This document shows, in pieces, positions 1-24,016 of a stretch of DNA of 32,609 nucleotides (its first letter is position 1; the number at the start of each line of letters is the position of its first letter). The notes under the pieces were generated by a model. The model did not search any database and was not told the DNA's origin. It saw nothing but the letters and a program-made list of their open reading frames with translations. The stretch comes from Calothrix sp. HK-06 (GTDB taxonomy: Bacteria; Cyanobacteriota; Cyanobacteriia; Cyanobacteriales; Nostocaceae). A program made the position numbers and the translations under genes. The stretch is from assembly GCF_001904745.1 (NCBI RefSeq), contig NZ_MRCD01000100.1, forward strand, positions 1-32,609, in the 5' to 3' direction.

Positions 1-89
1 GGAATATACGTTGAGAGCATGTAATAAAAATGACGATTTGTCTGCGACAATGAATGCGTAGAAACCAAGTTTATGCAGCGTAAGTCCTA
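1..89. repeat. Partial copy of a small inverted-repeat (MITE-like) element
   Basis: Positions 19-89 match 26066-26135 almost base for base, with a few substitutions and a small difference near 70-77. The copy ends in gcgtaagtccta (78-89), which is the right terminal arm of the complete element at 26018-26135. The left arm is either outside the window or has diverged. No reading frame is present, so this looks like a non-autonomous mobile or dispersed element. Confidence 0.7.
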
Positions 90-201
90 AATATAAGTCG
101 GTGCGTGACGCTACAAGTATTATAATTACATTGAAATTTTTTGATGGCATCACACACCCTACGATTTGTTTAAATATAATTATGTCTCTTAATATTCATT
201 G

Positions 202-230
202 TTGACAAAATAAAGTAAAATAAATAACAC
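202..230 (+). promoter_or_regulatory. Possible promoter upstream of the DUF3616 gene
   Basis: A perfect TTGACA lies at 202-207 in very AT-rich DNA, 58 bases before the preferred ATG. The -10 hexamer is poor: only AT-rich sequence such as taaata or aataac occurs at roughly suitable spacing. This is a weak sequence-only call. Confidence 0.3.
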
Positions 231-264
231 GTTTTTTGTTTTTATACTTTTGAATTTATACGCG

Positions 265-1326
265 ATGTTTAATAACCGATCAATCCAAACAATTCTACTA
301 AGCTTTAACGAAAGTTTTAAAGAACACCGAGAAGATACTTCGGCAGTTTTATTACAAACTGAAAAATATTTGTGGCTAGGTTCTGACGAAACATCTACTA
401 TTGAGCGTTTAAGGATAATTGATACCAGTAATTTTGGTGAACACAAGCAGTATCAAATTACAGATTTTATCGATTTACCAGCAGCATCTGATAAAGAAAT
501 TGACATCGAAGGGCTAGCATATAGCAATTATTATCTGTGGTTCGTTGGTTCTCATAGCTACAAACGCAAAAAACCAAAACCCAACAAATCTGATATTAAA
601 AATGTACAAAGATTAGCAACTATCGAAACAGAACCAAACCGTTACATCCTTGGACGTATACCTCTCGTAAATGGAGAGTTATTTGCTTCATGCTCACATC
701 CTGAAGATTCAACTCAACAATTAAGTGCAGCTAAATTAGAATTAACGCCAACAGGCAATGTGTTAATTGATGCTTTAGCTCAAGACTCTCATCTCGGCGC
801 CTTTATCAAAGCACAAATTCCAGGCAAAGACAACGGTTTTGATATTGAAGGTATCGAAGTTGAAGGGAATCGAGTTTTTCTTGGTTTGCGTGGGCCAGTT
901 TTACGCGGTTGGGCAGTCATGTTAGAACTAGAATTAGAAGTATTGAGTACAGAAGTATTCAAATTAGTACAAATAGAAGATAGTTTCTATAAGAAGCATT
1001 TTTTATATTTAAACGGTTTAGGAATTCGTGATATATGTCGTGATGGCAGTGATTTATTAATTTTAGCTGGGCCGACAATGGATTTAGATGGGCCAGTACA
1101 AGTTTATAGATTGTGCGATAGTTTTAATTTACAAGAAAATGTTTTACACCGTCCTGAAGTTGTACTTGATATTCCTTATGGAAACCGAGATGACCATGCG
1201 GAAGGGATGACATTATTTAAACAAGTACTAGGAAAGCCTTCATTATTGGTAGTATATGACTCACCATCGAAAACGAAGAGAGTTGTTGGAGATGCGGGTG
1301 TATTAGCAGATGTATTTGAGTTGTAA
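265..1326 (+). CDS. DUF3616 domain-containing protein
   Basis: Protein of 353 residues from ATG 265; an in-frame TTG at 250 is an alternative start, and neither has a clear ribosome-binding site. The sequence has the marks of the DUF3616 family as I know it: a WLGSDE stretch near the N terminus, DIEGLAYS followed by a WFVGSHS-like block, a second DIEGIEVEG with FLGLRGPVLRG, and a late DDHAEGMTLF. The repeated acidic DIEG blocks suggest a beta-propeller-like fold, which is inference. There is no signal peptide or membrane segment, so it is probably cytoplasmic. Biochemical function is unknown. It converges with the hybrid kinase, with only about 40 bases between the two stop codons. Confidence 0.85.
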   Translation: MFNNRSIQTILLSFNESFKEHREDTSAVLLQTEKYLWLGSDETSTIERLRIIDTSNFGEHKQYQITDFIDLPAASDKEIDIEGLAYSNYYLWFVGSHSYKRKKPKPNKSDIKNVQRLATIETEPNRYILGRIPLVNGELFASCSHPEDSTQQLSAAKLELTPTGNVLIDALAQDSHLGAFIKAQIPGKDNGFDIEGIEVEGNRVFLGLRGPVLRGWAVMLELELEVLSTEVFKLVQIEDSFYKKHFLYLNGLGIRDICRDGSDLLILAGPTMDLDGPVQVYRLCDSFNLQENVLHRPEVVLDIPYGNRDDHAEGMTLFKQVLGKPSLLVVYDSPSKTKRVVGDAGVLADVFEL

Positions 1327-1368
1327 GGGACGGGTTTACAATATTCTTCATCATAAATAGGATATAGG

Positions 1369-4300
1369 TTAACCCGCCCGTACAGGAGTTATAATTAAAT
1401 CTTTAATAGCTTTTAATAGATTTATGGGTTCGATTGGTTTGGCGATATGTCCTTGGAATCCTGCTGCTATCGCTTGCTGTTTATTATAATCTCCTGCGTA
1501 TGCTGTTAAAGCTATTGCTGGTATTTGTCCTCCTTGTTGCGGCGCCAATGTTCTGACTTGTTGTAGTAACATATAACCATTCATTTCTGGCATTCCAATA
1601 TCACTAATTAGTATATTTGGCAACCACTGCGTTAATGTTGTTAATGCTTGTTTTGCTCCATCTGCTGCAATGACTTCGGCGCCTGCTTGTTCTACTATAA
1701 ATTTTACTAGTTCTCGTGAATCGGTATCATCATCGACTACTAAAATTTTAATACCGTTTAAATTTAGCGATGACTCGGATGTTTTTGATATTACTTCTTC
1801 AATTGACTCTGTTTTTACTAACGGTAATTTTATCGTAAAAGTTGCACCCATTCCTTCACCTGGACTATCTGCACGAACCGTACCACCATGTAATTCTACA
1901 AGGTGACGCACGATAGCAAGTCCTAATCCTAATCCCCCAAACATGCGTGTTGTTGTACTATCTGCTTGCCGAAAGTAGTCGAACACATGGGGTAGAAATT
2001 CAGGAGAAATACCTTTTCCTGTATCGCTAACTGTAATTTGAGCAAATTTGGGAGCATTCGGAGCAAATGATAACTCCACTTGCAGGCGCCCACCCACGGG
2101 TGCAAACTTAACTCCATTAGAAAGTAAATTCCACACAACTTGCTGTAAACGTGCGGCATCTCCTAACACTTGTCCAACATTTGAGTCAAATTTTACTTCT
2201 ACCTGAATTGATTTAGCTTCTGCTGCTAGTCGGACTGTTTCAATCGCGGCTTCAATTGTTGCTGCTAAATTAATTGGATATATATTTAAATTTAACTTAC
2301 CTTGCAATATTCGCGAAACATCAAGCAAATCTTCGATGAGTTCAGATTGCAATTTTGCATTGCGCTCAATAATTTTTACAGCTTCTTTTGTTTTTGCTTC
2401 GTTTAACTTGCCACTTTGCAAAAGTTTAGACCAACCAAGGATAGGGTTAAGCGGTGTGCGTAACTCGTGCGATAAAACAGCTAAAAATTCATCTTTAATA
2501 CGGTTAGCTTTTTCGGCTTCAAGTCTAGCTGTTTGCTCTAATTGTAAAAGACGTGCGCGCTCGGCTTCGGCTTGCTTTCGTTCGGAAATATCAATTACTG
2601 AACCAATATAACCTTGATATTCACCATCTATCCCAAACCAAGGACTAGCTGCGTCCATTACCCAAAAATACTGACCGTCGTGGCGCCGCAAACGGTATTC
2701 TGTCTGGAAAGCTTCACACCGTGCGTTAGCTGCTTTAAATCTTTCTTCAGTGTATTCACGGTCTTCTGGGTGTGTAGCATCTAACCAACCATATCCTAAA
2801 CCAGTTGCTTCGGTTTGACCCGAAAAATCGTACCAGCTTTGACTAAGATATGTACAGTAGCCAGTGGAGTCAGTAACCCAAACCATGAAAGGGGCATTAT
2901 CAGCCATATTGCGGAAACGTTTCTCGCTTTCACGCAGTGTTTTTTCTGCTAGCTTAAGCTCGGTAATATCAGTTAAAGTGCCGTACCATTGTATAATTTG
3001 CCCTGTCGTATCATGAATTGGTATTGCCCGACACAAAAACCAACGATATTGTTCTTCTAATGATGCAATATTTTTAAGGCGAAATTCTGTTTGATAAAAA
3101 CTCCCTATTGCCAGACTTGTATTCCAAACTTCATACGTTGGCTCCAAATCATCTGGATGAATAACTTGTGCAATAAAGCCTTGGTCTAAAGTTTGCTCTA
3201 ATGTTAACCCTGTATAATCAATCCATCGCTGATTAACATATGTTGGTGTACCATCTACTGTAGCAGTCCATGCTATTTGTGGCATTGCGTCAGCTAGTTT
3301 ACGAAACTGTGCTTCACTTTGCCGCAGTGCTTCTTCAGTTTTTTTACGCTCTGTAATGTCTCGATAATAGGATGATAGTCCAGTTGCTCCGGGAAAAAGG
3401 CGCCCTTCAACCCAAATATCATATGTTGCGTAATATTCCTCAAATTCAACTACACTCTGTTCTTGCATCGCGCTTAGGTACGCTTGCTCAAATGGAGTAC
3501 CAATAATATCAGGAAAAACTTCCCACAACGTTTTACCAATAATTTCTTCGGGTGCTTTTCGCATCATTTGTGCTGCTGCTGTATTTGAGTAGGTAAAGCG
3601 CAAGTCGTTATCATAAGCAGAAAATGCATCGGTAACACGCTCAAGAATTACTTGCTCACGATGCGCGGACTCTTGCCGCAGTCGTGTTAACTTTAAACTT
3701 GCCTCTACTCGTGCTACAAGTTCCCGTGCTGAAAATGGTTTAATTAAATAATCATCGGCACCTGTAGAAAGTCCTTCTATGCGCGATTCTTCTCCCGCGC
3801 GGGCAGATAGTAGAATAATAGGAATTTCTCTTGTAGTTGGATTTGTCCGTAGTTGTTGCAATAACCCTAAACCATCTAGCTTGGGCATCATAATATCTGT
3901 TAATACTAAATCAGGTTTTTGTTGTTTAATTTTTTCTAGGGCACCAATACCGTCTTCAACTGCTTCTACACTATATCCATGCTCCTCTAATAATCGCTTG
4001 ACATATTCACGCATATCTGTATTGTCATCAGCAAGAAGAATTTTTGAAGAGTGTAGAGTGCTGAGTGTGGAGTTGGGGAAAGTAGTGTTAGTTTCAATAT
4101 TTAATTCATTACTCGGCACTTGTACGGACGCGATTAATCGCGTCTGTACACTTTCTAATCTTTGAGGTATCCAACTTGATGCTTCTTCTACGTATGCTGT
4201 TGTTTTTGTTGCAGTGGAACTGAGCGCGCGTTCAGCACCAATACGTTCTGGCGCCAAATGTTTACACCCAAGTGGAATTAATACAGTAAAACTTGTGCCT

Positions 4301-5976
4301 TGGTCAACAACGCTTGTTACATTAATTGTTCCACTGTGCAAAAGTACTAACTCATTCACTAATGATAGACCAATACCTGAACCCTCGAACGAACGACCTC
4401 TAGCGCCATTAACTCGATGAAACCGTTCAAATATATGTGTTAACTCAGATTCTGGTATACCTGTTCCTGTATCTCGTACTTGTAACTCAACGTGGTCATT
4501 TAATTGACGTAATACAACAGCTATTTCTCCTTCAAAAGTGAATTTAAAGGCATTGGAAAGCAGGTTAAGGACAATTTTTTCCCACATTTCCCGGTCTACA
4601 TACACGGGTTCTGTTAATTTTTGACAATCTATAATTAAATGCATACCAACCCGTTCAACCGTAGACCGAAACATGCTTGCTAAATCTGCGGTGAAGGTTG
4701 CCAGGTCGGTTGGTTCGTATACTACCTGAATACGTCCTGCTTCAATACGAGAAAAATCAAGTAAAGTGTTTACTAATTTCAACAAGCGCAGACTATTACG
4801 CTGCACTACCTCAATTCGTTCTTGCTGTCGTGGAGGCAAAGGTACATCTGTATCCCTGAGTGCATCTTCCACTGGACTCAACATTAAAGTGAGTGGAGTT
4901 CTAAATTCATGACTAACATTGCTAAAGAAAACGGTTTTAGCACGGTCAATTTCTGCTAATGCTTCCGCGCGCTTGCGTTCGTCTTCATAAGCTTGTGCGC
5001 TGGCAATGCTAGCAGCAATAGTATTTGAAACAAGCTCGAAAAATCTTTTATAATTACTATCTAAGAGTCTAAATGGATTTAAGCCAGCAATTAATATTCC
5101 GGCTTTACCTGTTTTTCCAGATGGTAATATTGGTACAACAACTGCTTGTGATGGTTCTTTATTCCAGGCGCCGTGGGGTAAATTATTATAGTGTGCTTCT
5201 AAATTAGAGATTAAATTGATTTGCTGCGATTCGATTACTTCAGCAAACGACCATATAGAGTCTTCATCAAGAGCTATTGTCTGTAAAGCTATTGAATGCC
5301 CAGTAATATTACTACTAGTTCCAGCTAAAATAAGGCGCCTAGTATCCGCGTCAACGAGATAAATTAGCGCGAACGGAATATCATAAGGATTAGTTTCTAA
5401 AGATTGTATACTCAGTTTACAAGCTGCCTCAAACGTGCGCGCATTTGCTGTACTAGCCGCTAACGAACGCAATAACGCTAACTGACGCTCACCAATGATG
5501 CTCTGCGTATTGTCAGTATTCGCACAAAAAATACCACCCGTGCCACCTTGGTCATTAGGAACAGGGCTATAAGAAAATGTATAATAAGTTTCCTCTGGAT
5601 AACCGTTGCGCTCCATAATCAGTAGCAACGATTCATCATAAGTCCCCTCATTATTAAGCATCGCCGATGCCGCTCTTAGACCAACTTGTTCCCAAATTTC
5701 GCGCCACACATGCGATGCAGGTTGTCCCAGAGCTTTTGGATGCTTACCACCTACAATACTTATGTAGGCATCATTATAAAGGTTAATAAGTTCATCACCC
5801 CACCAAATAAACATTGGTTGACGCGAAGTCAACACTATCCGTACCGAGGTTTTAAGACTTTGGGGCCAACTCTCAACGGCGCCTAACGGTGTTTGTGACC
5901 AATCATACGCGCGCATGAGTTGACACATCTCACCATTGCCAGCAAATAAGCTTTCAGAATCACTCGGTGCGGACAT
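1369..5976 (-). CDS. Hybrid sensor histidine kinase with two kinase modules and two receiver domains
   Basis: Cytoplasmic signalling protein of 1535 residues with no membrane segment. Domains in order: PAS-like sensor 20-150; GAF 165-325; HisKA with phospho-acceptor H356 (SHEFRTP); HATPase with N-box N471, DTGTGIP 502-508 and GSGIGLS; receiver 645-765 with Asp694 and Lys746; three PAS domains near 770-875, 885-1005 and 1015-1135; second HisKA with H1170 (SHELRTP); second HATPase with N1287 and DTGKGI 1318-1323; C-terminal receiver 1408-1530 with Asp1459 and Lys1513. All key residues of both modules are present, so it may run an internal phosphorelay. No output domain or adjacent regulator gene is present. 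The linker at residues 575-645 is partly made of dispersed repeats (see findings). A weak aaagag precedes the ATG. Confidence 0.93.
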   Translation of the reverse strand: MSAPSDSESLFAGNGEMCQLMRAYDWSQTPLGAVESWPQSLKTSVRIVLTSRQPMFIWWGDELINLYNDAYISIVGGKHPKALGQPASHVWREIWEQVGLRAASAMLNNEGTYDESLLLIMERNGYPEETYYTFSYSPVPNDQGGTGGIFCANTDNTQSIIGERQLALLRSLAASTANARTFEAACKLSIQSLETNPYDIPFALIYLVDADTRRLILAGTSSNITGHSIALQTIALDEDSIWSFAEVIESQQINLISNLEAHYNNLPHGAWNKEPSQAVVVPILPSGKTGKAGILIAGLNPFRLLDSNYKRFFELVSNTIAASIASAQAYEDERKRAEALAEIDRAKTVFFSNVSHEFRTPLTLMLSPVEDALRDTDVPLPPRQQERIEVVQRNSLRLLKLVNTLLDFSRIEAGRIQVVYEPTDLATFTADLASMFRSTVERVGMHLIIDCQKLTEPVYVDREMWEKIVLNLLSNAFKFTFEGEIAVVLRQLNDHVELQVRDTGTGIPESELTHIFERFHRVNGARGRSFEGSGIGLSLVNELVLLHSGTINVTSVVDQGTSFTVLIPLGCKHLAPERIGAERALSSTATKTTAYVEEASSWIPQRLESVQTRLIASVQVPSNELNIETNTTFPNSTLSTLHSSKILLADDNTDMREYVKRLLEEHGYSVEAVEDGIGALEKIKQQKPDLVLTDIMMPKLDGLGLLQQLRTNPTTREIPIILLSARAGEESRIEGLSTGADDYLIKPFSARELVARVEASLKLTRLRQESAHREQVILERVTDAFSAYDNDLRFTYSNTAAAQMMRKAPEEIIGKTLWEVFPDIIGTPFEQAYLSAMQEQSVVEFEEYYATYDIWVEGRLFPGATGLSSYYRDITERKKTEEALRQSEAQFRKLADAMPQIAWTATVDGTPTYVNQRWIDYTGLTLEQTLDQGFIAQVIHPDDLEPTYEVWNTSLAIGSFYQTEFRLKNIASLEEQYRWFLCRAIPIHDTTGQIIQWYGTLTDITELKLAEKTLRESEKRFRNMADNAPFMVWVTDSTGYCTYLSQSWYDFSGQTEATGLGYGWLDATHPEDREYTEERFKAANARCEAFQTEYRLRRHDGQYFWVMDAASPWFGIDGEYQGYIGSVIDISERKQAEAERARLLQLEQTARLEAEKANRIKDEFLAVLSHELRTPLNPILGWSKLLQSGKLNEAKTKEAVKIIERNAKLQSELIEDLLDVSRILQGKLNLNIYPINLAATIEAAIETVRLAAEAKSIQVEVKFDSNVGQVLGDAARLQQVVWNLLSNGVKFAPVGGRLQVELSFAPNAPKFAQITVSDTGKGISPEFLPHVFDYFRQADSTTTRMFGGLGLGLAIVRHLVELHGGTVRADSPGEGMGATFTIKLPLVKTESIEEVISKTSESSLNLNGIKILVVDDDTDSRELVKFIVEQAGAEVIAADGAKQALTTLTQWLPNILISDIGMPEMNGYMLLQQVRTLAPQQGGQIPAIALTAYAGDYNKQQAIAAGFQGHIAKPIEPINLLKAIKDLIITPVRAG
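4049..4077. repeat. Short tandem repeat inside the hybrid kinase gene
   Basis: On the minus strand this reads as units of about seven bases of the type actcagc/actccac, resembling the short tandem repeats found between genes in filamentous cyanobacteria. Here it is in frame and encodes a Ser/Thr/Leu-rich stretch around residues 634-643, just before the first receiver domain. Confidence 0.6.
4121..4150. repeat. 30-bp palindrome inside the hybrid kinase gene
   Basis: The perfect core gacgcgattaatcgcgtc is flanked by tgtac and gtaca arms with one mismatched pair. As I recall, palindromes of this type are common dispersed intergenic elements in Nostocales. Here it is read through in frame as part of the linker between the first HATPase and the first receiver (about residues 609-619, QTRLIASVQ). 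Confidence 0.75.
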
Positions 5977-6285
5977 TTCAACTCTTTGCTTATAAACTCA
6001 ATTATATGTATAACATGTAATTATATAAATAAAATCCTTAAAACCCACATCTATCGTTGGATATGTGGTGCCATAAACAGTGAGGAAGGTAAACGCAGTT
6101 TTCCCAAAGGGTAGCATCTGCAATATTTTTAGATTATCGCAGATTATTAATATACTCAAAACGGGTGATAAGTTTACTTTAAATAAATGTTAAAATATTT
6201 AATATCCTATCCTACAGGAAAACTACGTTTACGTTTACGTTCCTCAGCATGACAAAAGTTTACATTTTACCTGTTTGGAATATAG
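5977..6285. other. Intergenic region between the hybrid kinase and the Tn3 fragment
   Basis: AT-rich region of about 300 bp containing no recognisable gene. It should hold the promoter of the minus-strand hybrid kinase. A short inverted repeat (ccacat ... atgtgg) lies near 6044-6070. I see no clear promoter hexamers or RNA gene. Confidence 0.4.
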
Positions 6286-6465
6286 TATTCTCAGCAACTT
6301 ATACTACGTAACGACCCAATTGAACAAGAAAAACGACTTAAATACCTCGATTTGATTGCCAGCGCTGTAATCTTGCAGAACACCGTCGATATGTCGCTAG
6401 CAATTGAGGCGTTAATTACGGAAGGCTACCTAGTAAATCATCGACTGGTGGCAGTCCTGAGTCCT
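6286..6465 (+). pseudogene. Remnant of a Tn3-family transposase (TnpA C-terminal part)
   Basis: The open frame from 6286 reads through NDPIEQEKRLKYLDLIASAV, then an ILQNTVDM block, an ALITEGYLVN block and finally VAVLSP. This matches the C-terminal catalytic region of Tn3-family transposases as I know it (NDxxEQEKRxKY, hydrophobic xNxVDM, L..EGY, ALSPY). A stop codon sits at 6283-6285 upstream, and the similarity ends at LSP, where the family normally continues with YLT..HI.RFG. About 55 of nearly 1000 residues survive, so it cannot be functional. The frame runs on without similarity to 6582, overlapping the next start. I saw no terminal inverted repeats or resolvase. Confidence 0.75.
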
Positions 6466-6578
6466 TTAATATACTTTTGTCTTGAAATTGTTACCAACAC
6501 CCCTGTTTTTGCTCTTGATGTAAATTACTTTCCGTATCTGGGAATACTAAATGTAACAACTTCAAGAATGAACACACT

Positions 6579-9500
6579 ATGATTAGCACTCCTGTCAGTA
6601 TTCCCGGATATCAAATTAGCGAACAACTCTACGATGGTTCTAGAACCCTAGTTTATCGGGGTTTCCGAGAAATTGACTCAGTACCAGTGGTAATTAAATT
6701 ACTGAAAAATCCTTACCCCAGCTTCTCGGAATTATTGCAATTTCGCAATCAGTACACCATTGCTAAAAATCTCAGTTTTCCCGGAATAATCCAAACCTAT
6801 AGTCTAGAACCGTTCCAAAATGGTTATGTGTTAGTCATGGAAGACTTTGGGGGAATTTCCCTCAAAGATTACTTCACCAACAATAATATCCCATCTCTAG
6901 AAGAATTTTTACAAATAGCAATTTATCTATGTGACACTTTAGATATTCTCTATCGTCATCGAACTATTCATAAAGATATCAAACCCAGCAATATTTTAAT
7001 TAACCCTGAAACCAAACAAGTTAAATTAATCGACTTTAGCATTGCATCTTTACTTCCTAGAGAATCCCAAGAAATCAAAAGTCCCAACGTCTTAGAAGGA
7101 ACACTCACGTACATTTCTCCTGAACAAACAGGAAGGATGAATCGAGGAATCGACTACCGTAGTGATTTTTATTCTTTGGGTGTCACATTTTACGAATTAC
7201 TCACAGGCAAATTGCCATTTATCTGTGACGATGCAATGGAATTAGTGCATTGTCATATTGCAAAAATGCCCCCTTCAATTAACAGTGATAAAATTCCTGA
7301 AGTTTTGAATAATATTATTCATAAGTTAATGGCAAAAAATGCCGAAGATAGATATCAAAGCACTTTGGGCTTAAAGCATGATTTAGAAAAATGTTTGGCT
7401 CAACTTGAAAAAAATGGCAAAATTTTATTTTTTGAAATTGCTCAACGAGATATTTGTGATAGGTTTATTATTCCCGAAAAGCTCTATGGACGTGAAAAAG
7501 AAGTACAGAAGTTGCTAGATACTTTCGAGCGAGTGTCAAACGGAAAAACTGAAATAATGGTGGTAGAGGGTTTTTCTGGTATTGGCAAAACTGCGGTGGT
7601 TAATGAGGTTCATAAACCCATCATTAAACAACGTGGTTATTTTATCAAAGGAAAATTTGACCAATTTAAACGTAATATTCCCTTTTCAGCATTTGTGCAA
7701 GCATTCCGCAGTTTCATAGAACAATTATTAACAGAAAGCGATACACAAAATCAGTTATGGAGAACCAAAATATTAGATGCTTTAGGGGAAAATGGACAGG
7801 TAATTATTGAAGTCATCCCAGAGTTAGAAAGAATAATTGGTCAGCAGCCAGCAGTAGGAGAACTATCAGGAACTGCGGCACAGAATCGCTTTAACTTATT
7901 ATTTCAAAACTTTCTGCAAGTATTTACAACTCCAGAACATCCCTTAGTTATTTTCTTGGATGATTTACAGTGGGCTGATTCTGCATCTTTGAAACTGATG
8001 CAATTATTAACAGATAAATCATCATCACAAGGATATTTATTATTAATTGGTGCTTACCGAAATAATGAAGTGTTTCCAGCACATCCTTTGATGATAACTT
8101 TGGATGAGATTACTAAAGTTGGTACGGTAATTAATACAATTACTTTAGAACCCTTGAGCCAAAATAGCTTAAATCAACTCGCCACAGATACTTTAAATTG
8201 TACTGCTGATGTCACCCAGCCATTAACTGAGTTGATTTATCAAAAAACTCAAGGAAATCCCTTTTTTAGTAGCCAATTCCTCAAGGCTTTGTATGAAGAT
8301 GGATTAATTAGTTTTAATTTAGATGCTGGTTACTGGCAGTGTGATATTACCAAGGTAAGAGAAACAGCATTAACTGATGATGTCGTGGAATTTATGGCAT
8401 TGCAGTTGCAAAAGTTACCAGAAGCAACTCGGAATGCTTTAAAATTAGCGGCTTGTGTTGGTAATCAATTTGATTTAGCTACTTTAGCGATTGTTTCCGA
8501 ACAATCAGAAATGGAAACTGCTACTGCTTTGTGGAAAGCTTTGCAGGAGGGATTGATATTACCGCAAAGTGAGGTTTATAAGTTTTATCTAGGAATCCAA
8601 GAACAAGCTAATCAGCAAGGAGTACATCAAATTGTTAATTATAAATTTTTACATGATCGAGTACAGCAAGCTGCTTATTCCCTAATTCCAGAAGAGAAGA
8701 AACAGGCAACCCATCTCAAAATCGGTCAACTGCTCCAAGACAACTTATCAGACATAGAAAGAGAAGAAAAGCTATTTGATATTATCGGGCATTTGAATTT
8801 AGGAATTGAGTTAATTACTCAACCAAGGCAAAAGGAAGACTTAGCTCAACTTAACTTAGCAGCGGGACAGAAAGCTAGGAATTCTACAGCATATTCAGCG
8901 GCGAGAACTTTTGTGCAAACAGGACTGGAGTTGCTGACGGCTAACTGTTGGGAAAGTCAATATGAATTAACCCTGAACCTTCATGTGCTTGCAACTGAAA
9001 CTGCCTACTTAAATGGTGACCTTGAAGGCATGGAAAAAATGGCGTTAAAGGTGTTGCAAGAAGCTCAGATGGTTTTAGATAAAGTTAAAGTCTACGAAAT
9101 TCAAATTGGAGCGCAAACTTTACAAAGTAATGTATTGGAAGCGGTCACTATTGGCAGAAAAGCACTAGGTCAATTAGGGATTCAACTGCCGGATGAACCT
9201 GACGAAACCGAAATTGACAAAGCACTACAAACTCTTGCTAATCAACTCAAAAATATAGAAGTTGAAGAATTAATTGATCTGCCACTAACAACTGATGCCA
9301 CCATTCAAGCAGCGATGCAATTGATGGGGATGTTGTTTGCACCAATCATCCAGGGAATGCCTCGTTTATTACCGTGGCTCAGTTCAACTATGGTGAGCCT
9401 ATCTCTCCAATCTGGCAACAGTGTGGCATCAACAATTGGCTATGCTATTCATGGTATGGTAATGTCTGCTTTTTTGGGAGATGCAGTTGCTGGCTATGCT

Positions 9501-11987
9501 TTTGGTAAACTCGCTATAAATTTACTTGAAAAATTTAATATACAAGATAACAAGGCCATCGTCATGTTTCTGTTTGGCTCTTTTATTCAACACCGCCAAG
9601 AGCGATTGAATGCTACAATTCCTATTCTGAAAATAGCCTACCATACAGGTATAGAAACTGGAAATTTCTCATATGCTGGTTATTCTCTGGCTACCCATAG
9701 TAATGCCAAGTTTTTTGGTGGTGCGGAACTGGGCAGTTTTGTCAAAAATATGGCTGACTATAGTATGGCTTTGGCTCAGGTGAAACAATATTCTGCTCAA
9801 GTATATGTGGATTTGGCAAAACAAGTGGCAGAAAACTTGATTGAATCAGTCAGTCAACCCCATTGCCTAATCGGCAATGGCTACGATGAAACAGTGATGA
9901 TCCCCAAACACCACCAGGATAACGATTTCACAGCGCTCGCAGAGGTTTATCTTTACAAACTTCTGCTTGCCTACTCTTTTGATGATTACACTGTTGCAAT
10001 CAACTACGTTGCCGAATTTAAGCTGTATTTTATGGCATTATCGGGAACGCTTTATGTTCCCATTTTTCATCTTTATGCAGCATTAACTTACCTAGCACTC
10101 TTCCCCACACAGCCAGAACATCAACAAGCCGAAATTTTGGCTCAATTGGAAACCCATCAAACTATGCTGCACCAGTGGGCGCAAAATGCTCCTATGAATT
10201 ATTTACATAAATGGTATTTAGTCGAAGCAGAAAAACAACGAGTTTTAGAGAATAAAGTCGGGGCATTTGAAATGTACGAGCGCGCTATCCAAGGAGCAAA
10301 AGAAAACGGTTTTATTCAAGAAGAAGCCTTAGCTAACGAACTCACAGCTAAATTCTACCTGAATTGGGGCAAAGAGAAAGTCGCGGCAGGCTATATGCAA
10401 GAAGCCTACTATTGCTATGCCAAATGGGGAGCGAAAGGCAAAATCGATGACTTAGAAAAACGCTATCCCCAACTACTCAAACTTATCCTGCAACAGCGAC
10501 AGTTTACCCTCAATCCCTGGGAAACTATCGCTAACATTCCCTTTCCTCGGACATCTTCATCTGCTAATACCTCCACTGCTAGTAGCACCAGTATTTCCGA
10601 TGCCCTAGATTTTACCTCCATCCTCAAAGCTGCTCAAACTATTTCTAGCAGCATTGAATTAGATCAACTTGTCACTAGTCTCACCAAAATTATCCTGGAA
10701 AATTCCGGTGCGAAAAAATCTGTCTTAATTCTCCCTCAAGAAAATACTTGGCAAATACGAGCAATTACCTCGGTTAATTATCAAGATAGTTCCCAAGGCG
10801 AAATAGAAACTATCTTTAACCCACAATTACTAGATATATGCCAAGATATTCCCAGAAAGGTCATTAATTATGTAAAGAATACTCAAAAATACCTTGTTAT
10901 AAATAATTGTCAAACAGATATTCCTGGGGTGATTGGGAGATACATTTTAGACTATCAACCCAAGAGTATTTTATGTACTCCAATTATTAATCAAGGGCAT
11001 TTAGTTGGAATTTTATACTTAGAGAATAAACTCACAAGCGGGGTATTTACTCAGGAACGTCTGCAAGTAATTAATCTAATTTCCTCCCAAGCTGCCATCT
11101 CCTTAGAAAATGCTCGACTTTATCAACAATCACAACAAGCATTACAGAATTTACAACAAGCCCAATTACAAATAGTTCAAAGTGAGAAAATGTCAGCATT
11201 AGGTAATTTAGTTGCTGGGGTTGCTCATGAAATGAATAATCCTCTCGGCTTTATTTCTGCGAGTCTCAAACAAGCTAAACCCATCCTTACAGATATTGTT
11301 GACCATTTAAAACTCTATCAAAAAAGCTTAAAAAATCCAGATGAAGAAATTCTTGCTCATGCAGAAAAAATTGACTTGGATTATGGCTTAGAAGATTTAC
11401 CCAAGATTATAGATGCAATGGTAATGGCATGTGATAGATTAAAAAACATCAGTACCAGTTTAAGAACTTTCTCCCGTGCTGATAAAGATTACAAAGTTAC
11501 TTTTAACGTCCACGATGGTATTGATAGCACAATTTTAATTCTCAAACATCGCCTAAAAGCTAACGAACTACGCCCCGCAATTGAAGTTGTTAAAGAGTAT
11601 GGTAATTTACCACAAGTTCAATGCTTTCCTGGGCAATTAAATCAGGTGTTTATAAATATTTTGGCTAATGCAATTGATGCTTTAGAGGAGTCAAATATAG
11701 GGCATAGTTTTGATGATATTAAGGCAAATCCAAACAGAATCACAATTTCAACCTTAATCGAAAATGACAGGGTAAAAATTTCAATTGCTGATAATGGTAA
11801 GGGGATCAGTGAATCAATCAAATCAAAAATATTTGACCACTTATTTACTACAAAGGATATCGGTAAAGGTACGGGTTTAGGGTTGGCTATAGCTAAACAA
11901 ATTATTGAAGAAACACATGGCGGAAAATTGAATTGTAATTCTGTTCTGGGTCAGGGTACGGAATTTATTATTGAGATGTCAATGTAA
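6579..11987 (+). CDS. Ser/Thr kinase-AAA ATPase-GAF-histidine kinase (HstK-type)
   Basis: Protein of 1802 residues with the architecture of the large cyanobacterial dual-specificity kinases (HstK type). Domains: Ser/Thr kinase 1-270, with Lys40, HKDIKPSN at 131-138, DFS at 152-154 in place of DFG, and a SPEQTGRMNR activation segment; AAA/NACHT-like ATPase about 300-650, with Walker A GFSGIGKT ending at Thr338 and Walker B FLDDLQWAD around Asp461; a long helical, TPR-like middle; GAF about 1344-1512; HisKA with His1550 (AHEMNNPLGF); HATPase with Asn1697, DNGKGIS and GTGLGLA. There is no signal peptide or membrane helix. The ATG at 6579 lacks a clear ribosome-binding site. The gene contains no GGCGCC, unlike nearly all others here, and sits beside a Tn3 remnant, so separate acquisition is plausible. 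Its signal and targets are unknown. Confidence 0.92.
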   Translation: MISTPVSIPGYQISEQLYDGSRTLVYRGFREIDSVPVVIKLLKNPYPSFSELLQFRNQYTIAKNLSFPGIIQTYSLEPFQNGYVLVMEDFGGISLKDYFTNNNIPSLEEFLQIAIYLCDTLDILYRHRTIHKDIKPSNILINPETKQVKLIDFSIASLLPRESQEIKSPNVLEGTLTYISPEQTGRMNRGIDYRSDFYSLGVTFYELLTGKLPFICDDAMELVHCHIAKMPPSINSDKIPEVLNNIIHKLMAKNAEDRYQSTLGLKHDLEKCLAQLEKNGKILFFEIAQRDICDRFIIPEKLYGREKEVQKLLDTFERVSNGKTEIMVVEGFSGIGKTAVVNEVHKPIIKQRGYFIKGKFDQFKRNIPFSAFVQAFRSFIEQLLTESDTQNQLWRTKILDALGENGQVIIEVIPELERIIGQQPAVGELSGTAAQNRFNLLFQNFLQVFTTPEHPLVIFLDDLQWADSASLKLMQLLTDKSSSQGYLLLIGAYRNNEVFPAHPLMITLDEITKVGTVINTITLEPLSQNSLNQLATDTLNCTADVTQPLTELIYQKTQGNPFFSSQFLKALYEDGLISFNLDAGYWQCDITKVRETALTDDVVEFMALQLQKLPEATRNALKLAACVGNQFDLATLAIVSEQSEMETATALWKALQEGLILPQSEVYKFYLGIQEQANQQGVHQIVNYKFLHDRVQQAAYSLIPEEKKQATHLKIGQLLQDNLSDIEREEKLFDIIGHLNLGIELITQPRQKEDLAQLNLAAGQKARNSTAYSAARTFVQTGLELLTANCWESQYELTLNLHVLATETAYLNGDLEGMEKMALKVLQEAQMVLDKVKVYEIQIGAQTLQSNVLEAVTIGRKALGQLGIQLPDEPDETEIDKALQTLANQLKNIEVEELIDLPLTTDATIQAAMQLMGMLFAPIIQGMPRLLPWLSSTMVSLSLQSGNSVASTIGYAIHGMVMSAFLGDAVAGYAFGKLAINLLEKFNIQDNKAIVMFLFGSFIQHRQERLNATIPILKIAYHTGIETGNFSYAGYSLATHSNAKFFGGAELGSFVKNMADYSMALAQVKQYSAQVYVDLAKQVAENLIESVSQPHCLIGNGYDETVMIPKHHQDNDFTALAEVYLYKLLLAYSFDDYTVAINYVAEFKLYFMALSGTLYVPIFHLYAALTYLALFPTQPEHQQAEILAQLETHQTMLHQWAQNAPMNYLHKWYLVEAEKQRVLENKVGAFEMYERAIQGAKENGFIQEEALANELTAKFYLNWGKEKVAAGYMQEAYYCYAKWGAKGKIDDLEKRYPQLLKLILQQRQFTLNPWETIANIPFPRTSSSANTSTASSTSISDALDFTSILKAAQTISSSIELDQLVTSLTKIILENSGAKKSVLILPQENTWQIRAITSVNYQDSSQGEIETIFNPQLLDICQDIPRKVINYVKNTQKYLVINNCQTDIPGVIGRYILDYQPKSILCTPIINQGHLVGILYLENKLTSGVFTQERLQVINLISSQAAISLENARLYQQSQQALQNLQQAQLQIVQSEKMSALGNLVAGVAHEMNNPLGFISASLKQAKPILTDIVDHLKLYQKSLKNPDEEILAHAEKIDLDYGLEDLPKIIDAMVMACDRLKNISTSLRTFSRADKDYKVTFNVHDGIDSTILILKHRLKANELRPAIEVVKEYGNLPQVQCFPGQLNQVFINILANAIDALEESNIGHSFDDIKANPNRITISTLIENDRVKISIADNGKGISESIKSKIFDHLFTTKDIGKGTGLGLAIAKQIIEETHGGKLNCNSVLGQGTEFIIEMSM

Positions 11988-12084
11988 ATATCTTTGCTCT
12001 TGATATAATTTAACTTTCTTAATAATTAGAAGATTGTTGCGATAAATTTGTGGAGAAAGTGTTTGAGGAGTGATGAATCATTGG

Positions 12085-12113
12085 ATAGGGCAGGCAAGGA
12101 TGTCTACCCTACA
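12085..12113. repeat. Dispersed intergenic repeat (gggcaggcaaggatg type)
   Basis: The core agggcaggcaaggatg is followed by a partly complementary tctaccct. It matches the core of the repeat at 16815-16862 after pth. Similar sequences are, to my recollection, common between genes in Nostocales. It lies between the converging kinase and ABC exporter genes and may help end transcription, though there is no T-tract. Confidence 0.5.
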
Positions 12114-12121
12114 CTCATAAC

Positions 12122-12153
12122 TCATCCGTTACATCCGTTATATCCGTTGCCAG
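12122..12153. repeat. 9-bp tandem repeat abutting the ABC exporter stop codon
   Basis: Read on the minus strand, the TAA stop of the ABC exporter is followed at once by ctggc and then three 9-mers: aacggatat, aacggatgt, aacggatga. The same ctggc plus three aacggatgt units follow the stop codon of the DUF948 gene at 19915-19947. Confidence 0.8.
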
Positions 12154-14016
12154 TTAGCTCCCCAACATTTGTAAGTTGTGCAGAGTCGCATATAACCCTC
12201 CTTGCTCTATCAACTGTTCATGACTACCTTGTTCTATAAGCTCACCACGCTTCAATACAAAAATCCTATCTACATTACGTATGGTAGATAGACGGTGGGC
12301 AATAATTATGGCAGTACGGTCAATTAATAGTTCGTCTAACGCTTTCTGAACTAATGCTTCTGTACCTACATCTAAACTTGCTGTAGCTTCGTCCAACACC
12401 AATACTTGGGGGTCACGTATCGCAGCACGTGCAAATGCTAAAAGCTGCTTTTGCCCACTCGAAAGGTTTGTTCCTCTTTCTCGTAGTTGTGTGTGGTAGT
12501 TTTGCGGTAGCTGTTCAATAAATTCTGCGACGTTGGTTTTTTCTGCTGCTCGTTGCACTTCTCCTATTGTGTACCCATCTCCCAAGGATATGTTTCCTTT
12601 TACGTCTCCTGCAAATATAAACCCGTCTTGCAGTATTACTGCCATGTATCGTCGCAGTTCGGCTTGTGGTACATCACGGATGTCGATACCATCTATTAGT
12701 ATTCGCCCTTGTGTTGGTTCGTAAAGACGACACAGTAATCTTATTATCGTACTTTTCCCGGCGCCTGTTGGTCCAACTAATGCTATTTTCTCACCTGGCT
12801 GAATCACAAAGTCCAGGTCTTTAATTACATAATCATTATCTTTGTATGCAAACCAGACATGCTCAAATCTTATTTCTCCAAGTTTGGCTGTAACCTCATG
12901 TTCATCCAGATTATTAACAATTTCGTCGATATAGCCAAATTCAAACCCCGATAAATGTCTTGAACCTTTATCGCGTATTTCTATTGGCTCATCTAAAATA
13001 TCACTGACTCGCTCTATTGCTGTAAACCCTGCCTGAATAACTGTAAACTTTTCGGCAAATTGCTGTAATGGGTCAAATAGTCTTTGTGCGTACAATATAA
13101 ATGTTGAAAGAATAGCAAACGTTAATTGCTGTTTGAGTAGTAACCATCCTCCTAGCCACAGTACCCCAGAAATAGCTATTAATGATATCCATTCGAGCGT
13201 CGCTGATACTGATGAATCAAAAAATATCGTTCGGTCTACTTCTTTTACATAACTATTATTTGATTGTCTATATAATTTCGCGTTAAATTTCTCGCGTCGA
13301 AATAGCTGGACAACGTTTATACCCGTGATATTTTCCTGTAGCTGCGAGTTCAGTACCGAAAGTTCTTCCCTTGCTTTATAATTGGCTTTCCGGTATTGCT
13401 GCTGAAAGTAAATAATTAACGCTCCTATTGGTATTAGTGTCAGAATTAACATCAATGCTAGCTGCCACTGAACCGTAAACATAAAGCTAGCTATTACTAG
13501 CATTGATAATACATCTGCTAGTATACCTATGGCGCCTGTTGAAAATACATCTCCTAGTGCTTCAACATCGCTTGTTAACCGAGTAATCAATTTTCCTACA
13601 GGTGTACGGTCAAAGAACCTTACAGCTAAAGATGTGACGTGATGAAATAAGTCTTGACGTATTTCTGCTGTAATATTCTGTCCAACTTTCTGAACCAGAT
13701 ATCCTTGAAACCCTCTTAATAACAACTGAATAAGTACTGTTACTAAAAATGCACCTTCGATGATTTGTAACCCTTCCATTAACGTACCCCGTTTAAAAAA
13801 CGCATACGTACTTGGTTCGTTACGAATTAATGAAATTGCTTGACCTATCAACAATGGTTGTGCTGCATTGCCTATTGCTATTGGCACTAGCAATAACATC
13901 GATACTGTTAATAACTTGTAATGCCGACGCGCGTATGGCGCCAACCGCAAAAATAACCGCCAGTCTGTTTCTCGACGGCGTTCGGTAGATTTTGGTAGCG
14001 TATTGGTGATGCTCAT
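12154..14016 (-). CDS. ABC exporter half-transporter (fused permease and ATPase)
   Basis: Protein of 620 residues in the MsbA/MdlB-like exporter layout. The N-terminal membrane domain (about 35-330) has some six hydrophobic segments, and the nucleotide-binding domain covers about 380-615. Visible motifs: Walker A GPTGAGKS 415-422, Q-loop around LQDGF 462-466, signature LSSGQ 518-522, Walker B VLVLDEA with catalytic Glu543, and switch His574 in AHRLSTI. It should work as a homo- or heterodimer in the cytoplasmic membrane. No partner half-transporter is adjacent, so a homodimer or a distant partner is likely. The substrate cannot be read from the sequence; lipid, peptide or drug export are all possible. 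No clear ribosome-binding site precedes the ATG. Confidence 0.93.
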   Translation of the reverse strand: MSITNTLPKSTERRRETDWRLFLRLAPYARRHYKLLTVSMLLLVPIAIGNAAQPLLIGQAISLIRNEPSTYAFFKRGTLMEGLQIIEGAFLVTVLIQLLLRGFQGYLVQKVGQNITAEIRQDLFHHVTSLAVRFFDRTPVGKLITRLTSDVEALGDVFSTGAIGILADVLSMLVIASFMFTVQWQLALMLILTLIPIGALIIYFQQQYRKANYKAREELSVLNSQLQENITGINVVQLFRREKFNAKLYRQSNNSYVKEVDRTIFFDSSVSATLEWISLIAISGVLWLGGWLLLKQQLTFAILSTFILYAQRLFDPLQQFAEKFTVIQAGFTAIERVSDILDEPIEIRDKGSRHLSGFEFGYIDEIVNNLDEHEVTAKLGEIRFEHVWFAYKDNDYVIKDLDFVIQPGEKIALVGPTGAGKSTIIRLLCRLYEPTQGRILIDGIDIRDVPQAELRRYMAVILQDGFIFAGDVKGNISLGDGYTIGEVQRAAEKTNVAEFIEQLPQNYHTQLRERGTNLSSGQKQLLAFARAAIRDPQVLVLDEATASLDVGTEALVQKALDELLIDRTAIIIAHRLSTIRNVDRIFVLKRGELIEQGSHEQLIEQGGLYATLHNLQMLGS

Positions 14017-14221: not shown

Positions 14222-14947
14222 ATGGCAAGTAAGACTATTGCATGGCTCATTCCCACTGTGGCAATGACAGTTTTTGGCTGGAATATTAGCGCACAAGCAC
14301 AAACAACCAACAATTTTGATATTGAATATGAAACCTTGACTGATATTCGACCATTCCTACCTAATACTGGAAATGACCTATTCCCTCAGTTTGTCAGAGC
14401 AACTATTACTGGTACAAGTACTGCTCCTGCGGCCTTTGGGTTAGATAAATTCGTTAGTAACACCTATGGTCGGCGTCAAGAGACAAACGACCCCACCTTG
14501 GTTAGATACGAATTTAATTCTAATCCTACTGCTTTTGGTCTATCTAGTGATCTCGAAGCTTTCAACGATAGATACTTCGGTGGAGAAAACGAGTTGTTTG
14601 GTAAAGCTAATGACCGCGCGGAAATTAATCTAGCTGCTGGCACTATTCAAGGTGGTGGTACTATTACTATCTTCGATGGTACTGGGGTATTTGATAATGC
14701 TACCGGTCAAGTTACCTTTACTCAGCAAGATAGGTTAGGCCCAATTGGTCAACCCGCTCCTGGTAGGGCTACACTTAAATTTCAGATACAAACACCCGCG
14801 CGTCAAATTCCTGAATATACGCCTGCTACCACTTTACTTGCTGCGGGCTTAACTGGCGCCGTATATTTACGATTTAAAAACGCAAAAACGTTAAAAGCAA
14901 AAGGGAAAAATAATCCCCTTTCACCTTTAGCCTCTACTACCGTGTAA
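14222..14947 (+). CDS. Secreted protein with a PEP-CTERM-like C-terminal segment
   Basis: Protein of 241 residues. Residues 1-26 form a signal peptide: Lys4, a hydrophobic core, and AQA before QTT as the likely cleavage site. The middle (30-190) is rich in Gly, Thr, Asn and Phe and looks like an extracellular beta-sheet protein; I do not recognise the domain. Near the C terminus IPEYTP (196-201) is followed by a hydrophobic stretch and basic residues (YLRFKNAK), which resembles the exosortase-sorted PEP-CTERM tail but with PEY in place of PEP and about 20 extra residues afterwards. It is transcribed alone and followed directly by a strong hairpin. Exosortase-dependent surface attachment is inference. 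Confidence 0.6.
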   Translation: MASKTIAWLIPTVAMTVFGWNISAQAQTTNNFDIEYETLTDIRPFLPNTGNDLFPQFVRATITGTSTAPAAFGLDKFVSNTYGRRQETNDPTLVRYEFNSNPTAFGLSSDLEAFNDRYFGGENELFGKANDRAEINLAAGTIQGGGTITIFDGTGVFDNATGQVTFTQQDRLGPIGQPAPGRATLKFQIQTPARQIPEYTPATTLLAAGLTGAVYLRFKNAKTLKAKGKNNPLSPLASTTV

Positions 14948-22698: not shown

Positions 22699-23790
22699 TT
22701 ATTCCCCAATAGCTATACAATCGGTTTCTGACCACCATGCGTATATAGGGGTGTTTGGGTCAGGAATTATGCCTGCTGTATTTGGTTGCATGACGGTAAT
22801 GTGAATTGTTGGTGCAATTTCAACTACGTAGTTAACTCTAGTTCCCAAATACATGACATTGATGAGTCGTCCTTCAAAGCAATTCTTTTGTACGCTGGGT
22901 TTATATAGCGATAGCTGAATTTTCTCTGGACGCACGCTAACTGTTACTGACTGCATCTCTTGGGGTGAGTGTTCTGTACGACTAACGATTATCTTTAGCT
23001 GTTGTTTTGTTAAAACTTGTAAATTATTAGCGTTGATGTCAACGATTTGACCAGCGAATAGGTTAGTATCACCGATAAAATCAGCAACAAATGCTGTTCG
23101 GGGTTGTTCGTAAATTTCTGCTGGGGTGCCTATCTGCTCGACTTTGCCTTTATTCATGACGGCAATACGATTACTGAGTGAGAGTGCTTCTTCTTGGTCA
23201 TGTGTCACCATAATGAAGGTTAACCCTAGCTCTCTGTGCAGGTTAGATAATTCTAACTGCATTTCTTTACGTAACTTTAAATCAAGGGCGCCGAGTGGTT
23301 CATCGAGTAATATAACAGCTGGACGATTCACTAATGCACGTGCTAAAGCAACTCGTTGTTGCTGTCCACCCGATAGTTGGGCAGGATGACGAGCTTGAAA
23401 CCCCTCCATTTTGACTTGCGCTAATGCGTCTTTAACACGAGTTTGGATTTCTGAAGAAGGTAGTTTTTTCAAACGTAAACCAAATGCGATGTTATCCCAA
23501 ACGTTTAAATGATTAAATAAAGCATAACTTTGAAAGACAGTGTTAACAGGTCTTTTGTAAGGTGGAACGTTTGCCATTGACTCTCCACGAATGAACAATT
23601 TACCTGCGTCAACAGTTTCAAATCCTGCTATCATTCGCAATGTCGTTGTTTTTCCACAACCAGAGGGACCCAATATACTAAAAAACTCGCCCTGTTTTAC
23701 GTCTAAATCTATGCCGTGTACTGCTGGTTCTTGGTTAAAAAACTTGAAAGCTCCTTGCAGTTCCACATCTACTAACCTAGTTTTTGTCAT
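22699..23790 (-). CDS. potA: Polyamine-type ABC transporter ATPase (PotA family)
   Basis: Protein of 363 residues from ATG 23790, with cagggt upstream; an in-frame start at 23823 would add 11 residues. It has Walker A GPSGCGKT (41-48), Q-loop Gln87, signature LSGGQ (139-143), Walker B VILLDE (159-164), D-loop and switch His197 (VTHDQEEA). The C-terminal part (about 230-363) is the TOBE-type regulatory domain of PotA/MalK ATPases, with SVRPEKIQL near 285. First gene of the potA-potD-potB operon, divergent from the PBP2 gene across some 225 bases. It powers uptake of the PotD ligand through PotB and a second permease that is not encoded here. Confidence 0.92.
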
Positions 23791-23823
23791 ATTACCCTGA
23801 TTATCCCTGACAGCTTGCCACAT

Positions 23824-24016
23824 AACCCCTAATTCAGTATTAATACTTAATTTGAACCTATTTTATGTAGCCTATTAGGCAGACAAGAAATAGCTCTTTG
23901 GTTTATTGTACCCATCAATAATAAAAACACCCATTTCAATCTTATTGATTAAATCCCCGATGAAACTGACCTCAGTCGTATATAAATAACAATATTATTA
24001 AAATTACAGTACTTAT
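23824..24016. promoter_or_regulatory. Divergent promoter region between potA and the PBP2 gene
   Basis: AT-rich region that should hold promoters for both directions. A short palindrome gcctattaggc (near 23870-23880) might be an operator. I looked for an NtcA-type GTA-N8-TAC site and saw none. Confidence 0.35.

Follow-up and report, generated by a model that had tools for sequence, protein, structure and literature searches.

The stretch of DNA analysed here (the window, 32,609 bp) carries the gene of an 1802-residue dual kinase, flanked by two genes native to the locus that encode a hybrid histidine kinase on the left and an ABC exporter on the right (Table 1). Upstream of the dual kinase lie a scrap of a Tn3-family transposase and a dispersed MITE-like repeat. 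This repeat is matched by 58 stretches of the host genome, a number that includes the window's own copy and both arms of some copies, and it may serve as a recombination site. The window has 44 copies of the hexamer GGCGCC, compared to a mean of 2.6 and a maximum of 6 in dinucleotide shuffles, but none in a gap that spans the kinase gene. This gap had been noticed in an earlier, sequence-only reading, and a count of the motif confirmed its description: the sites bounding the gap are at 5878 and 12760, the latter within the ABC exporter, spacing outside the gap is about 0.58 kb (0.6 kb had been stated), and the second-largest gap measures 2.1 kb (23287-25385). The positions it gave for the kinase reading frame, the Tn3 remnant and the exporter were correct as well.

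Table 1. Features of the locus in window coordinates.
Feature	Position	Strand	Basis or remark
Hybrid histidine kinase, native left neighbour	1369..5976	-	9 GGCGCC copies
GGCGCC-free gap	5884..12759	.	motif count
Putatively replaced block, no homology to the equivalent site in G004/G006	6067..12087	.	blastn breakpoints
Dispersed MITE-like repeat, internal inverted repeat	6081..6284	.	arms ~6086-6135, 6186-6235
Tn3-family transposase remnant, 59 residues	6298..6474	+	PF01526 positions 322-380 of 389
1802-aa dual kinase, cbSTKIII type	6579..11987	+	domain content
Ser/Thr kinase domain	6609..7382	+	PF00069
AAA_16 ATPase domain	7479..8048	+	domain match
Central TPR-like superhelix segment, mosaic piece	8730..10196	+	ancestry unlike flanking domains
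GAF domain	10659..11105	+	domain match
Histidine-kinase ATPase domain	11634..11978	+	PF02518
ABC exporter, native right neighbour	12154..14016	-	GGCGCC again from 12760

The abundance of GGCGCC is a property of the whole genus. The genome that contains the window (G000, 9.99 Mb) has 15,449 copies and only 6 of the control hexamer CCGCGG, the strong over-representation expected of an exceptional highly iterated palindrome. All seven genus genomes are rich in the motif (7,475-20,380 copies, 1.1-1.7/kb), whereas no comparable level is reached by any of the 210 remaining genomes of the family; the highest count there is 1,053, beside 1,270 control sites. Of 16 genomes from elsewhere in the order, one from another family (G032, 6.2 Mb) has 2,493 GGCGCC and 38 control sites and is a possible second, weaker case of enrichment. 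GGCGCC has been described as the exceptional palindrome of Calothrix PCC 7103, where it replaces HIP1 (GCGATCGC), and biased mismatch repair was proposed as its maker (Elhai 2015, PMC4390886); a literature search for GGCGCC and Calothrix found nothing beyond that paper. The hexamer, the genus and the lack of HIP1 are all the same here. HIP1 is missing from 18 of the 22 kinase loci of the own genome, with 1-4 copies in the other four, and from three congener loci (L139, L143, L291), so that it is absent or rare as judged from the loci counted rather than genome-wide. Exceptional palindromes were said in the same source to be sporadic and non-persisting. The presence of GGCGCC in 7/7 genus genomes, still seen where the ABC gene has diverged to 81% DNA identity, does not fit this remark. 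m5C methyltransferases, which may or may not cover GGCGCC (GRCGYC), are encoded in all seven genomes, one of them common to all; the common enzyme also occurs more broadly, in 18 of 31 genomes. A 370-aa methyltransferase was considered as the cause of the palindrome and rejected because it is widespread.

The expectation of some twelve GGCGCC copies in the gap, which followed from simple Poisson spacing, did not survive a count of the positions where the protein sequence allows the motif. The only synonymous contexts that permit it are Gly-Ala, X-Ala-Pro and [W/R/G]-Arg-[L/P/H/Q/R]. Such contexts number 3.19 per kb in 299 sampled open reading frames of at least 300 aa from the own genome, where the number of sites divided by that of contexts (fill) is 0.52, but 1.83 per kb in 100 kinase genes of the genus, with a fill of 0.44. 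A G004 gene interrupted by stop codons (C7:317199-320936) is left out of the 100-gene set, in which L021 and L022, belonging to a single gene, count once. The scarcity belongs to the protein family: kinases from outside the genus have 1.79 contexts per kb and other genes in those genomes 2.79-2.84. The window kinase has just 7. Because sequences of this family seldom permit GGCGCC, about five copies rather than twelve are expected; with the fill of 0.52 and the intergenic DNA included the figure is 5.2 and P(0) is about 0.001, to be read in the light of the gap being a post hoc pick of the largest among some 45 gaps. When the kinase gene is taken by itself, P(0) is 0.006-0.017, the higher value applying at family fill, and such a value would hold even for a native gene, which argues against reading the empty gene as an import.

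Six of the 100 kinase-family genes are free of GGCGCC, compared to 1.0 expected, which indicates that the variation exceeds chance. In 800 kb sampled from the own genome there are four gaps of at least 5 kb, where an exponential distribution predicts 0.46, and one of at least 6.9 kb (8.9 kb long), where 0.02 are predicted. The gap of the window is thus unusual but not unique in its genome. Seven gaps in this sample are at least 4.5 kb long; two hold other hybrid kinases, three hold other genes, and two hold or adjoin an open reading frame that by eye resembles a serine recombinase. The longest desert, larger than that of the window (G000:C167:160897-169793), contains three inner reading frames of 363-1114 aa, and a similar stretch in PCC 7103 (G005:C7:134574-141844) runs for 7.3 kb with 1.5 GATC/kb.

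The kinase itself is of an already known type (STK-AAA-TPR-GAF-histidine kinase). A Ser/Thr kinase, a GAF domain and a histidine kinase occur in one chain, as in the cbSTKIII proteins HstK/Alr2258, Alr0709 and Alr0710 of Anabaena (PMC2176072), which likewise have the Ser/Thr kinase at the N-terminus and the histidine kinase at the C-terminus. At the histidine kinase end HATPase_c scores 76.6 bits, and HisKA 22.2 bits, under the cut-off of 26.9. The centre of the protein (window 8676-10478) is predicted to be an all-helical repeat superhelix (pLDDT 95), and the predicted fold matches TPR proteins, six of them at E 0.001 or better, and domain III of MalT at 0.0046. From this model we infer a sensor of STAND-like type that is connected to a kinase at either end. 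The MalT-like superhelix would sense a ligand, the AAA module would act as a switch, and the Ser/Thr and histidine kinase ends would signal.

Residues 1-717 are 81% identical to both L211, a gene of PCC 7103, and L299, a gene from another genus. Over residues 718-1206 identity to these two is only 29-30%, but 65% to a Tolypothrix kinase (L040); the histidine kinase end is again 80% identical to L299. By these values the kinase is a mosaic whose central part has an ancestry separate from that of the flanking domains. Large paralogous families and domain shuffling were reported earlier for the Anabaena cbSTKIII proteins (PMC2176072), as is the case for the window kinase. Unlike in the cbSTKIII description of that source, the TPR part between AAA and GAF is of separate ancestry too. 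Among 176 rows of the kinase family, 242 of the 493 pairs with at least 75% identity in the AAA domain have a centre below 45%. However, the class of the centre agrees for the most part with the N-terminal tree, with 31 class changes for 26 classes (142 rows), and rampant swapping of central domains was rejected since only about six extra switches occur on that tree. The central TPR-like parts of L059 and L070 are about 33% identical and the other domains 85-91%; such parts seemingly are interchangeable sensor modules.

Comparison with congeners shows an empty site. Homology to G004 and G006 in blastn stops at 6066-6067 and restarts at 12088, and in both genomes the hybrid histidine kinase and the ABC exporter adjoin without the window kinase, the interval being occupied by a different filler of 3.0-3.2 kb with small open reading frames. 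The left flank (1-6066) is 94% identical in DNA to that of G006 and has 9 of 12 GGCGCC sites in common with it. A filler reading frame of 134 aa is common to G002, G004 and G006, and in G002 it is adjacent to the exporter gene. With tblastn (E <= 1e-8, pieces above 35% identity kept) no kinase-family gene was found beside the ABC exporter in any of six congeners or in six genomes of other genera, one of these 12 loci (L150) ending early at a contig end. The block is most simply read as a replacement in the lineage of the own genome, because homology breaks at both edges, other filler lies between, and the kinase is absent there from all six congeners. Absence from the orthologous site in close relatives is a mark of horizontal acquisition, and the synteny comparison proposed in the sequence-only reading thus gave the result it predicted. 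Other changes were seen around the locus. In G004 and G006 the filler ends on its right side with pieces of the MITE family, and G002 has such pieces close to the ABC exporter. The hybrid histidine kinase of G004 (L142:9258-11737) lacks about 2.1 kb internally. The gene at 14222-14947, next to the exporter, has only 60-65% identity to its counterparts in five congeners, in which the exporter is 93-99% identical, and by these identities it appears to be fast-changing.

The opposite polarity would have the kinase as the ancestral occupant, lost and replaced by filler in six congeners, with GGCGCC absent through few contexts and chance. The seven contexts of the gene (P(0)=0.017 at family fill), the low context density of the family (1.8 per kb, against 2.8-3.2 for other genes) and the native codon use would agree with this. 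Yet it requires loss in all six lineages, the same filler reading frame sits between the neighbours in three congeners, and one of the two nearest relatives of the kinase belongs to another genus. We consider this scenario improbable.

A transposase remnant in the gap had also been pointed out, and the scrap of 59 residues is indeed present, but a part for it in the event found no support. Transposition by a Tn3-family element with the kinase as cargo could be imagined from its position 104 bp upstream of the kinase gene. Only those 59 residues of tnpA are left, however, inspection of the flanks by eye recognised neither terminal repeats nor a target duplication, and the sequence preceding 6520 is not found next to L211, L299 or L002. 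Transport by Tn3 is therefore very improbable, the least probable of the alternatives considered.

The own genome has 21 kinases of this family including the window kinase, and the closest paralogue is 62% identical. The closest homologue in 217 genomes of the bacterial family, with two candidates scored per genome, reaches 69% and is from another genus; within the genus the best is 65%. This lack of a close ortholog speaks for import. A tree of the first 1560 residues groups the window kinase with L211 and L299, which are mutual sisters (SH-aLRT values 98 and 100, that of the group with the window kinase being 98). A larger tree without L299 places it with L211 at 93, within a clade mostly from outside the genus. 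The gene tree thus conflicts with the species tree, L211 and L299 being sisters across genera, which is a second mark of horizontal acquisition and agrees with what the earlier reading had expected of a kinase tree. Both trees are quick ones (SH-aLRT and no bootstrap), the N-terminal tree of the family is a FastTree one, and the outside kinases were collected with the window kinase as query, so that its subfamily is over-represented. That L211, one of the two nearest relatives, is a congener gene counts against import. No plasmid source was found: the best near-full-length match is 58% among the 15 matches listed of 165 plasmid records, and in two of the 165, outside those 15, the best place has 60-80% identity.

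The block could instead have moved within the genome or the genus from a GGCGCC-poor locus, without recent import from outside. Genes of this family seem to relocate inside the genus, as near-identical copies have different flanks: L002, L212 and L217, from three genus genomes, are 96% identical in DNA, but of the flanks, compared over 1.1-1.5 kb, only 51-65 bp are common to them. An intermediate GATC density and normal codon use would also fit residence in genus DNA. On the other hand, neither the own genome, with its paralogues at 62% or less, nor the six congeners contain a near-identical source, and the donor may already have been low in GATC, as L299 is. A move of this kind is unlikely, though better placed than the two preceding alternatives; it overlaps with the preferred replacement reading through the shared gene pool of the genus, so that the odds of the two do not sum to one.

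Composition gives mixed signals. Scarcity of a palindrome has been used before: in Synechococcus elongatus PCC 7942 a low number of HIP1 sites together with odd codon use marked foreign genes, with the warning that HIP1 may be missing for other reasons (PMC3025956). The logic that a palindrome-poor gene is a suspected newcomer is the same here, but the motif is GGCGCC and not HIP1, codon usage disagrees, and, compared to that work, the test draws on the empty site, the contexts that the protein allows, GATC density and the turnover of sites. The codon comparison proposed in the sequence-only reading showed the kinase to be ordinary (32nd percentile of 299 open reading frames), and codon usage gave no signal of foreign origin. 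In tetranucleotide use the block is an outlier among mixed 6-kb windows (0-1 of 132), and the kinase has the highest deviation of the 21 own kinases, yet it stays within the range of single long genes, which leaves the proposed k-mer check with an answer that depends on the reference. HIP1 is absent from the gene, where kinases from outside the genus average 0.69/kb. The native-like codons, the lack of HIP1 and the unexceptional tetranucleotides for a long gene all argue against import.

The GATC density of the window kinase is 0.92/kb. It is 0.16-0.50/kb in GGCGCC-filled own paralogues with congener orthologs (L007, L013-L018), and the median of 66 kinases from outside the genus is 2.6/kb, three of them being at or below 0.92. 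The window kinase lies between the two groups, which counts in favour of the acquisition reading. L299, the nearest relative in another genus, has 0.74/kb, and the ABC locus of its genome 2.5/kb. Because L299 is itself poor in GATC, the low value of the window kinase may be older than its arrival and inherited from the donor. In the 800-kb sample (L171-L210) GATC is strongly avoided, with an observed/expected ratio of 0.09, as is GGCC (0.19), and CGCG is enriched (1.66). Another hybrid kinase of the own genome (L006/L023, G000:C75:1283-7114) has no GGCGCC, four HIP1 sites and 2.2 GATC/kb; in the large tree L006 is surrounded by kinases from other Nostoc and Calothrix genomes, and it has the look of a more recent import whose source was a HIP1 cyanobacterium.

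The use of GGCGCC as a sharp clock of nativeness, as the earlier reading had it, could not be upheld; the clock is slow and noisy. Over 100 genes GGCGCC fill and GATC density are inversely related (rho -0.58, and -0.57 over 53 ortholog groups). Ortholog groups with a fill of 0.2 or less are confined to a single genome in 10 of 11 cases, and the other groups in 20 of 42 (Fisher p = 0.015; over four thresholds 0.014-0.039, with correlation p 0.013-0.065). This relation is seen only after grouping of orthologs, as per gene fill does not follow the number of congeners that have the gene (rho 0.07). L002, a paralogue free of GGCGCC, is 95% identical to genes of two congeners that contain one site each and lie in other surroundings, a shared-flank kinase group in four species has 3, 3, 1 and 1 sites, and L019, with 8 GGCGCC yet 3.88 GATC/kb, contradicts a reading based on the two markers. 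A comparison of shared and unshared DNA (200 kb each of G002 and G005) gave a weak trend, with synteny too broken for use. Turnover of sites is slow: kinase orthologs share 86% of GGCGCC sites at 92-95% DNA identity and 54% at 80-85%, so that a gene may stay empty about as long as the species have been apart. It is possible, though we hold it with reserve, that GGCGCC is a stably inherited, slowly accruing, genus-wide replacement of HIP1 which together with GATC loss forms a two-hand residence clock, on which the window kinase would be intermediate, with most GATC lost and GGCGCC not yet gained. The odds of this proposal are lowered by L299, which shows that low GATC may come from the donor.

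In view of the above, we favour, with a probability of about 0.75, that a segment of about 6 kb was swapped in after the own lineage had split from G004 and G006. The dual kinase, the MITE-like repeat and the Tn3 scrap (6067-12087) would have replaced ancestral filler between two native genes, and the kinase would stem from DNA without accumulated GGCGCC, either directly or via the shared accessory pool of the genus. After arrival, slow site formation and few codon contexts would have kept the kinase from being refilled; few sites are expected to have formed since the split because site turnover is slow. Of the proposed recent acquisition from a genome without the motif, the lineage-specific arrival stands, given the empty site, but the word recent is without support.

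The block as such is an ordinary replacement of an accessory kinase, and the genus in which it occurs is more useful. Motif-free deserts need correction for protein sequence before they are read as foreign DNA. A genus of seven genomes with a switched palindrome allows direct study of how palindromes arise and how fast, and permits a test of Elhai's view that exceptional palindromes are short-lived.
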